Shown one piece after another: positions 38,459 through 41,232 of a DNA stretch of 64,000 nucleotides. The notes beneath the pieces are model-generated. The model was not told the origin of the DNA, ran no database searches, and was given only the letters and a program-made list of their open reading frames with translations. Numbering within the stretch: the first letter of the stretch is position 1; every line of letters begins with the position of its first letter. Source of the DNA: Gammaproteobacteria bacterium (lineage in GTDB: Bacteria; Pseudomonadota; Gammaproteobacteria; Eutrophobiales; Eutrophobiaceae); NCBI GenBank assembly GCA_004297165.1, contig SCUJ01000005.1:186001-250000 (forward strand), given 5' to 3'. Position numbers and translations under genes: made by a program.

Positions 38459-39604
38459 TCAAACGAAGAGCTGCAATAGGTCATTCAAGTAGCGTTGACC
38501 TTTTACGGTAGGCCTGATGCATTCCTGCTGAATTTCAATCAAGCCGAGGTCTTGACCCTGTTCGATGCGGTCACGAATCGTTGCCAGGGCGTGGCCGGTC
38601 CGTTCCTCGAAGAGGGCAGAGGAGAATCCCTCTCGCAGCCGCAGGGCATTCAACATGAATTCCAGATCGATTGCGCAACCTTCGACCAGGTAATTGCTGC
38701 TCAACATCGCAGTAGTCCCGGAGTAACGCATGTATTCTGCGGGCGATGCCTGGCGCACCTCTCGCCTGATGCCGCCGTTCAGGGGATTGCTCAGCTTGCT
38801 GTGCGCCCCGGCGCCGATGCCGAGATAATCCCCGAAACGCCAGTAATTCAAGTTATGTACGCAGTGTGTATCCTCCGCCTTCGCCCAGGCGGAGATCTCG
38901 TAATTCTCATAGCCTGCTGCGGCCAACAACTCACGACCTGCCTCCTGTATTTCCCACCCCGTATCTTCGTCCGGCAGGATCGGAGGGTTTCTTGAAAACA
39001 CCGTCCCTGGTTCGATCGTCAGTTGATACCAGGAGAGATGCTCGGGCCTGAATTCGATTGCCGTTTGCAGGTCGGCGACGGCATCGGGCACAGTCTGACC
39101 CGGTAATGTGTGGATGATGTCCAGATTTAAATTAGTAAACCCCGCATGTCTCGCGTGCACGATCGCAGCGCGGGCCTCGGATGAGTCATGCACGCGTCCC
39201 AGCGCGCGCAAGGCGGTATCATTAAAGCTCTGAATACCTATCGAGAGACGGTTCACTCCCGCGGCACGATACTCGGCAAAACGCCTAAGGTCAGCGGCGC
39301 CAGGGTTCGCTTCCAGGGTGATCTCGCAATCCGGAGCGAGCGCTACTTTACTCTCGATCAGTTGCAGCATGTGTCCGGCGCCGGCGCCGCTCAGCAGGCT
39401 CGGCGTGCCGCCCCCGATGAACACGCTTCGTACCTCGCGCGATTCGATCGCTGGCAAGGACATTTCGAGATCGCTCGCCAGGGCTGCCAGATAACCTGCC
39501 TCATCAAAACCCGCATGCCCCACGCCATGGGAATTGAAATCACAGTAAGGGCATTTGCGGATGCACCAGGGGAAGTGAATATATAAGGCTAATGGGGGCA
39601 ACAC
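38459..39604 (-). CDS. hemW: Radical SAM heme chaperone
   Basis: A 381-residue radical-SAM protein. The cluster motif is the CX3CX2C in IHFPWCIRKCPYCDFNSH; GGGTPSLL, ANPGAAD and GIQSFN follow as in HemW/HemN. HemW binds heme and inserts it into respiratory enzymes; it is not a coproporphyrinogen oxidase despite older names. Family length is ~380. It starts downstream of the small-RNA terminator at 39661-39706. Confidence 0.93.
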   Translation of the reverse strand: MLPPLALYIHFPWCIRKCPYCDFNSHGVGHAGFDEAGYLAALASDLEMSLPAIESREVRSVFIGGGTPSLLSGAGAGHMLQLIESKVALAPDCEITLEANPGAADLRRFAEYRAAGVNRLSIGIQSFNDTALRALGRVHDSSEARAAIVHARHAGFTNLNLDIIHTLPGQTVPDAVADLQTAIEFRPEHLSWYQLTIEPGTVFSRNPPILPDEDTGWEIQEAGRELLAAAGYENYEISAWAKAEDTHCVHNLNYWRFGDYLGIGAGAHSKLSNPLNGGIRREVRQASPAEYMRYSGTTAMLSSNYLVEGCAIDLEFMLNALRLREGFSSALFEERTGHALATIRDRIEQGQDLGLIEIQQECIRPTVKGQRYLNDLLQLFV

Positions 39605-39660: not shown

Positions 39661-39843
39661 AAATAAAAAAGAACCATACTGACCATCGCGTTGACGGTCA
39701 GTATGGCTTGCTCTGGGGGGAACAAAAATCATGGAGTCATCATAACAGGAGCATCTCTGCATCGCCCCGCCTCGGTGTACTGGTCTGTACACCTGATAAC
39801 CCATTCGTAAGCCTGTACTTTCAGTGCCGTACCGAACAGTACG
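39661..39843 (-). ncRNA. Candidate small structured RNA
   Basis: A promoter and an intrinsic terminator bracket about 180 bases with no credible coding frame. In the predicted transcript the first bases form hairpin 1 (CGTAC-TGTTCG-GTACG, 39843-39828). Hairpin 2 is a perfect 7-bp stem (GGTGTAC-AGACCA-GTACACC, 39793-39774). Hairpin 3 is the terminator. The single-stranded part between hairpins 2 and 3 contains TGCTCCTG and TTCCCCCC, pyrimidine-rich segments able to pair with ribosome-binding sites. I do not recognise it as 6S, tmRNA, RsmY/Z or another named RNA. Existence is inferred; no expression data are available. Confidence 0.6.
39674..39706 (-). terminator. Intrinsic terminator of the candidate small RNA
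   Basis: A perfect 11-bp stem (CCATACTGACC, 11-base loop, GGTCAGTATGG) followed on the minus strand by TTCTTTTTTATTT (39673-39661). No annotated minus-strand gene lies just upstream to explain it; the only minus-strand promoter-like signal is at 39850-39879. Confidence 0.85.
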
Positions 39844-39849
39844 ATTCAA

Positions 39850-39879
39850 AGTATATAAAACCCCTCAGCACACTGTCAA
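39850..39879 (-). promoter_or_regulatory. Strong sigma-70 type promoter
   Basis: On the minus strand a consensus TTGACA (39879-39874) is followed after 18 bases by TATACT (39855-39850), or after 16 bases by TATATA (39857-39852). Initiation would be near 39843, exactly at the first hairpin of the candidate RNA. Confidence 0.75.
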
Positions 39880-39880
39880 G

Positions 39881-40047: not shown

Positions 40048-41232
40048 ATGTCCGTTCCCGCCAATAAATTTCTCGTATTTCTGCTCGGCATGCTCGTTGC
40101 GATCGGTCCGTTGTCGATCGACATGTACCTTCCGGGCATGCCTGCGATACAGGCAGGTTTCGAGACAAGCGCCGGCCTTACCCAACTGACTCTAAGCGCT
40201 TTCCTGATCGGGTACTCTCTCGGACAACTCATCTACGGGCCGCTCTCGGATCGCTTTGGACGCAAACCGGTACTCCTCGCGGGGATCAGCATCTTTGCAA
40301 TGAGCAGTCTCTTGTGCGCTGTGACCTCCAACATCGAAATGCTCATCTTTCTACGCTTCATGCAGGCGGCTGGCGGCGGCGCTGGCGTAGTACTGAGCAG
40401 GGCCATTGTCAGGGATTATTTCCCCGCGGATCAGACAGCCCGCCTCCTGTCCCTCATCAGCATCGTCACCCTTGGCGCGCCTATCGTCGCCCCCGTACTG
40501 GGCGGGTATCTCCTGGTTTGGGCGGGCTGGCGCAGCATCTTCTGGGCCCTGACGTTATGGGGAATCGTGTATATCGTCATGATCGTCTTTTGCATCGGCG
40601 AATCGCATCCGCAAGAAAAACGTCAGCAATTGGACCTGTACGGCACGCTGGCTGTCTATCTGGAAATCCTGCGCGAACGAAACTCGCTCGGTTATATCTT
40701 GAGCTCCAGTCTGAGCGCTACCGCGATATTCGCCTATGTTTCGAGCGCCCCATTCGTCTTCATCGAGATCTATGGCGTCCAACCCGAGAATTTCGGCTAT
40801 CTATACGGACTCATCACTTCGGGATTGATATTCTGCGCCATTGCGAACAGCCGGCTGGTCATCAGCCTGGGCCTGGATCGTATGATCCTCTACGCACATC
40901 TGATGCGGATAAGCGGCGTGGGAATGCTGATCTACCTTAGCCTGAGTCACTCCGGCAGTCTATTCGGATTGGTCATCGCCCTGTTGCTCTGTGTCAGCCC
41001 GACGATCATCATCAACATCAATTCCGCGGCGGGGATCCTGCACATCTTTCCCCGCTATTCCGGCACAGCCTCCGCAGTCTCCGGGGCGGCCATGTTCGCG
41101 GGTGGGGCGCTGTCAGCACCCGTGCTCGGCCTGATTGATGACCACACCCTTATGCCGCTGACTGCGACCATGGGGGTGTTTTCGCTATTGAGTGTTGTTT
41201 CCTACTACATGCTCGTAGAGCGAGAGTATTGA
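40048..41232 (+). CDS. Bcr/CflA family MFS drug transporter
   Basis: A 394-residue major facilitator protein with about twelve hydrophobic helices. MFS motif A reads GPLSDRFGRKPVLLAG. The N-terminus (LGMLVAIGPLSIDMYLPGMPAI) is typical of Bcr/CflA exporters for bicyclomycin, chloramphenicol and related compounds. The inner-membrane exporter is proton driven; the substrate here is unknown. The convergent MarR-family gene ends 58 bases away. Confidence 0.9.
   Translation: MSVPANKFLVFLLGMLVAIGPLSIDMYLPGMPAIQAGFETSAGLTQLTLSAFLIGYSLGQLIYGPLSDRFGRKPVLLAGISIFAMSSLLCAVTSNIEMLIFLRFMQAAGGGAGVVLSRAIVRDYFPADQTARLLSLISIVTLGAPIVAPVLGGYLLVWAGWRSIFWALTLWGIVYIVMIVFCIGESHPQEKRQQLDLYGTLAVYLEILRERNSLGYILSSSLSATAIFAYVSSAPFVFIEIYGVQPENFGYLYGLITSGLIFCAIANSRLVISLGLDRMILYAHLMRISGVGMLIYLSLSHSGSLFGLVIALLLCVSPTIIININSAAGILHIFPRYSGTASAVSGAAMFAGGALSAPVLGLIDDHTLMPLTATMGVFSLLSVVSYYMLVEREY

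Follow-up and report, generated by a model that had tools for sequence, protein, structure and literature searches.

The window analysed here is a stretch of 64,000 nucleotides from an uncultured gammaproteobacterium (contig SCUJ01000005.1, positions 186,001 to 250,000), whose genome, hereafter called G000, comprises 3.5 Mb in 13 contigs. On the minus strand of the window, positions 39664..39846 hold a predicted small RNA gene of about 180 nt, which we call RNA1 and whose transcript probably starts near 39843. RNA1 sits between hemW, the gene for the radical SAM heme chaperone (38459..39604, minus strand; TIGR00539 above cutoff), and a divergent Bcr/CflA family MFS efflux gene (40048..41232, plus strand). 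Therefore, as the initial annotation of this DNA had stated, the terminator at the end of the unit cannot be ascribed to a minus-strand gene upstream. The promoter described in that annotation is also present: TTGACA (39874..39879, minus strand) and TATACT (39850..39855, minus strand), separated by 18 nt, agree with the consensus at 11 of 12 positions, and an alternative −10 hexamer, TATATA, has a 16-nt spacer. Because about 2.4 matches of at least 9 of 12 positions are expected in that 3-kb region, the hexamers by themselves are weak proof. The RNA from 39843 to 39661 folds with −70.4 kcal/mol, as compared to −50.0 kcal/mol for dinucleotide shuffles (z −4.5), and none of 200 shuffles was as stable, consistent with the stable folding that had been claimed.

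How is RNA1 built? First, a 5′ hairpin (39815..39842, minus strand) is formed by a DNA segment that is nearly palindromic (TACCGAACTGTTCGGTA in the related genome described below), and its structure is poorly conserved. Second, a central three-way junction (39731..39804, minus strand) is closed by the stem GGGUUAUCA/UGAUGA-CC, and the third hairpin of RNA1 carries the 19-mer GCGGGGCGAUGCAGAGAUG (39752..39770, minus strand). Third, the hairpin UUGUUC-CCCCCA-GAGCAA (39708..39725, minus strand) presents a C-rich apical loop, which is exposed in the predicted fold. Finally, an intrinsic terminator (39672..39708, minus strand) consists of a stem of 15-16 pairs with a 5-nt loop, followed by CUUUUUU, with the U-tract running onward to 39664; the terminator and its U-tract thus exist as annotated, although the stem is longer than the 11 bp given for it. 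Of the pyrimidine-rich segments that had been described as single-stranded, the C-run is indeed exposed in the CCCCCA loop, whereas TGCTCCTG is not single-stranded, its CUCC half being paired with GCGGGG. A near-perfect palindrome covers the predicted start of RNA1 (39829-39847 in the window, where it is half-degenerate; 1507-1525 of locus L002 in the related genome), and it resembles a repressor operator no less than an RNA hairpin.

The only relative of the same genus in our genome collection, G001 (an assembly 76% complete), carries the RNA1 unit at the same place, with the same gene order and spacing. The RNA1 sequences are identical at 144 of 183 positions (79%). This exceeds the identity of the flanking genes (67-72%; 726/1086 for hemW and 850/1185 for the MFS gene), which in turn exceeds that of the surrounding spacer (46-56%; 65/140 upstream of the promoter and 33/59 between the terminator and hemW), which is hardly alignable. 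The aligned promoter in G001, TTGACA-16-TATAAT, agrees with the consensus at all 12 positions, the homologue folds with a z of −3.5, separate predictions for the two sequences both contain the central three-way junction, and the terminator geometry is the same. In the terminator stem, two pairs are compensated on both sides (A-U to G-C and C-G to U-A) and one change is one-sided; with two sequences only, the covariation of RNA1 was equalled by 53 of 500 shuffles, and we treat the compensated pairs as observations only. A 36-nt block containing the C-loop hairpin is identical between the two genomes, while conservation is lowest in the first 5′ hairpin. Of the elements that the initial annotation had proposed to check in a close relative, the promoter and the terminator stem are kept in G001, and its proposal of a small RNA gene that is transcribed and terminated independently is supported by conservation above that of the neighbouring genes and by the compensated stem changes. 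The 69-amino-acid reading frame that overlaps the unit was considered as a small protein and rejected as a gene, because gaps of 1, 4, and 2 nt in the homologue break the frame; the stem pairs, moreover, compensate one another.

RNA1 belongs to no known RNA class, as had been suspected: the window has no match in Rfam 15 at the gathering score, and the best permissive matches lie far below the threshold. No tRNA or tmRNA was found in the searched DNA. Searches by DNA, pattern, and covariance model found no RNA1 outside G000 and G001 among 53 genomes of the family and order (the family set and the order set are the same), with the covariance model, R1, matching only these two. A match to RNA1 in G045 was dismissed as a chance 24-mer shared with the terminator, inside an apparent coding sequence. 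A member of another genus, G017 (88% complete), yielded no RNA1; its hemW was also unmatched, the hemW region being missing from the assembly.

Could RNA1 instead be a 5′ leader or attenuator of hemW, expressed by read-through of the terminator? The hemW start lies about 60 nt past the terminator, in an arrangement shared by both genomes, and since there is no recognisable promoter in the interval, hemW may depend on read-through. We nevertheless regard this reading as decidedly unlikely. When the 3′ arm of the terminator is removed, no antiterminator pairing common to both genomes appears, and the alternatives are weak and differ from each other; the terminator is strong and kept by compensation; and no RNA1 was found at the hemW loci of 28 relatives, including those beyond the genus that have retained hemW. 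A leader role, even with some read-through into hemW, would leave unexplained the pairing of RNA1 with a second RNA, which is described below. We conclude that RNA1 is very probably a genuine small RNA gene of this uncultured gammaproteobacterium, and one not described before.

Using RNA1 as the query in the family search, we found, besides the G001 homologue, exact 18-19-mer matches in G000, G001, and G017, with E-values of 0.009-0.014 per genome. All three matches are located, on the opposite strand, in the loop of the terminator hairpin of a second sRNA-like gene, which we call RNA2. The reciprocal search with RNA2 recovered the RNA1 of G001, and when 84,980 species were scanned with a degenerate 21-base pattern fitting both RNAs, the records of G001 and G017 alone matched. 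A further match, with two mismatches, at C13:548544 was set aside, as it lies inside a coding gene and away from start sites.

In G000, RNA2 lies outside the window, on the minus strand of contig C13 (1371754-1371880; about 1371754-1371930 with the promoter included). It is present in three genomes and two genera, in each case after a gene of the anaerobic benzoyl-CoA pathway, which encodes cyclohexa-1,5-dienecarbonyl-CoA hydratase (TIGR03189 in G000, matching reading frames in G001 and G017), the next gene in G000 and G001 being nrdJ, for the class-II ribonucleotide reductase. The RNA2 hairpin has 28 invariant loop bases, which include the typical anti-Shine-Dalgarno sequence UCCUCAUCUC, above a covarying stem with three pairs changed on both sides. 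In all three genomes, the promoter combines an FNR box (TTGATNNNNATCAA; variants TTGATCCAAATCAA and TTGATCTAAATCAA), centred at about −41.5, with TAGTCT at class-II spacing, the distance between the two being equal in two genomes and 1 nt shorter in the third. Each of these genomes encodes an FNR protein with the CxxCxxxxxC motif and Hfq above the cut-off. The promoter is thus of the class-II FNR type, and RNA2 is apparently under oxygen control. A known RNA of this kind is FnrS of Escherichia coli, an FNR-controlled sRNA that represses mRNAs when oxygen is absent; RNA2 resembles FnrS in its FNR-type control and differs from it in sequence and gene neighbourhood. The RNA2 loci have no Rfam match, FnrS included, and RNA2 apparently represents an undescribed sRNA family of its own at the end of an anaerobic benzoyl-CoA gene cluster.

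The 19-mer GCGGGGCGAUGCAGAGAUG of RNA1 pairs with CAUCUCUGCAUCGCCCCGC in the RNA2 loop. The complement extends over 19 nt in G000 and about 20 nt, with one G-U pair, in G001, where a C-to-U change in the core keeps the pairing as G-U, a CUA extension is added on one side, and the other side is one base shorter. The predicted duplexes reach −46.0 (G000) and −40.4 (G001) kcal/mol, and none of 500 shuffles was as strong; the dimer gains −16.2 and −24.3 kcal/mol, respectively, over the separately folded RNAs, as compared to means of −5.7 and −5.2 kcal/mol when the motif was shuffled. The complementarity is therefore kept between species, here two species of one genus. Because the complement lies partly inside an RNA1 stem (GCGGGG), pairing would require opening of this stem or a start by loop-loop contact. 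We also considered that RNA1 might be an ordinary trans-acting sRNA whose complementarity to RNA2 is a functionless coincidence or a relic of shared ancestry. The E-values of the revealing matches, modest on the genome-wide scale, would allow for this, but the matches in all genomes are antisense to one and the same loop, invariant within a covarying hairpin, and the pairing in G001 is kept by wobble and extension; a functionless match is therefore very improbable.

Next, we considered what RNA2 itself might bind. In G000, its loop is also complementary to the Shine-Dalgarno region of a gene for an ABC-ATPase, UAUGCAUAGAUGAGGAUGCACGUUUAUG, found as a match over 24 bases with one mismatch (96%). 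The G017 orthologue is 84% identical, while its leader differs (GGAGCGAUGCAGAGAGAUGG) and complements the RNA2 loop in its other half, across the Shine-Dalgarno and start region. The energies for RNA2 with these leaders are −34.5 in G000 and −33.6 in G017, values reached by 0 and 1 of 500 shuffles, respectively. A pattern search of the whole G000 genome for anti-RNA2 sites ahead of ATG gave 11 matches, among which only the ABC gene was used as target evidence. The best argument that RNA2 represses the ABC mRNA is that in two genera the loop reaches the same gene, each time with a different half. On the RNA2 loop, the 19-mer of RNA1 overlaps the site of the mRNA (CAUCUCUGCAU), and the 19-mer resembles the G017 leader, as expected of a target mimic. 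G001 (an assembly 76% complete, as noted) yielded no copy of the ABC gene, and G017 yielded no RNA1; hence, the full trio of RNA1, RNA2, and the ABC gene is seen only in G000. On C13 of G000, the ABC-ATPase gene overlaps a gene for a 1167-amino-acid permease-like protein, which has no NCBIfam match, and genes for an RND efflux adaptor and pump follow (L082, 2954-7343). These genes may constitute a putative exporter operon under RNA2.

Which of the two RNAs controls the other? The complementarity by itself leaves the direction unsettled. RNA1 might regulate mRNAs through its exposed CCCCCA loop, which is similar to an anti-Shine-Dalgarno sequence, with RNA2 as an FNR-induced sponge that inactivates RNA1 without oxygen. 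The identity of the C-rich hairpin and its surroundings over 36 nt, together with the exposure of the loop, is more than a pure decoy needs. However, it is RNA2 that has an anti-Shine-Dalgarno loop with a complementary ribosome-binding site in two genera, RNA2 extends to a genus where RNA1 was not found, and the C-loop of RNA1 lies outside the RNA1–RNA2 pairing. We thus consider this reversal of roles unlikely. RNA1 has features of a sponge: it has a promoter and terminator to itself, it is complementary over a long stretch to the part of another sRNA that binds targets, and its genome encodes Hfq. Since its 19 bases perfectly complement the binding loop of RNA2, RNA1 most likely acts as a decoy that keeps RNA2 off its target mRNA. 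We therefore favour, with some reserve, the reading that RNA1 is an independently transcribed, Rho-independently terminated sRNA that acts as a target mimic, or sponge, of RNA2. The best reading of the pair is that RNA2 would be an anaerobically induced translational repressor, titrated by RNA1 as a constitutive mimic.

Considering these features, we propose the following course of events. When oxygen is absent, FNR would induce RNA2, whose loop would mask the ABC mRNA at its Shine-Dalgarno sequence or start and thereby repress it. RNA1, made from its near-consensus sigma-70 promoter, would pair with the same loop, and RNA2 would be neutralised, and probably degraded with the assistance of Hfq, until its amount exceeds that of RNA1. 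Such titration would set a threshold and would clear RNA2 once oxygen returns. Tentatively, the whole may form an RNA circuit of three parts in an uncultured anaerobe that degrades aromatic compounds: an anti-Shine-Dalgarno sRNA under FNR control, its loop invariant, would keep one ABC-exporter target across genera, despite the change of the paired half, and a constitutive sRNA with a copy-like target site would titrate it, creating an oxygen threshold.

Sponges of sRNAs are already known, and RNA1 would add a candidate of that kind. CrfA of Caulobacter crescentus, induced by carbon starvation, is a sponge of SisA-D, which act by an anti-Shine-Dalgarno motif (PMC12559287). As an sRNA antagonising sRNAs that repress through such a motif, CrfA is the closest in logic; it differs in having a four-member partner family, as compared to one partner here with an FNR-type promoter, and in belonging to another lineage. 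QrrX of Vibrio cholerae is a sponge of the Qrr sRNAs, switched by its own activator QrrT, and shares with RNA1 the sponge logic in an organism with Hfq (PMC9732341). Unlike QrrX, to which it has no sequence relation, RNA1 has a near-consensus promoter, and the switched member of the pair is apparently its partner, RNA2. In Bacillus subtilis, the RoxS sponge is dedicated to antagonising a riboregulator of central metabolism (PMC8216469). This sponge, from a Firmicute, has no known sequence relation to RNA1. It is known as RosA. Through Rfam, we found no sequence relation of RNA1 or RNA2 to QrrX, CrfA, or the RoxS sponge, and searches of open-access literature, judged by titles and abstracts, yielded no sponge directed against an FNR-controlled sRNA. 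As a rule, sponges come to light when the interactomes of model bacteria are sequenced, while RNA1 was predicted from the genome sequence alone, in an uncultured lineage. As the prediction extends to its partner and to a plausible target mRNA, the candidate can be tested by synthetic constructs in a laboratory host. If the proposal is true, an RNA antagonist would be added to the FNR oxygen response, and a target mimic would have been maintained within a genus by pairing (C-G to U-G).

Judging by its invariant C-rich loop ahead of the terminator, RNA1 may have mRNA targets of its own as well. The pairing with RNA2 leaves this loop untouched, and no long complement of the C-rich segment was found on either strand. 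Of the pairing with ribosome-binding sites envisaged in the initial annotation, only a part is retained, with the C-rich loop as a candidate, although the strongest partner of RNA1 is another sRNA, RNA2.
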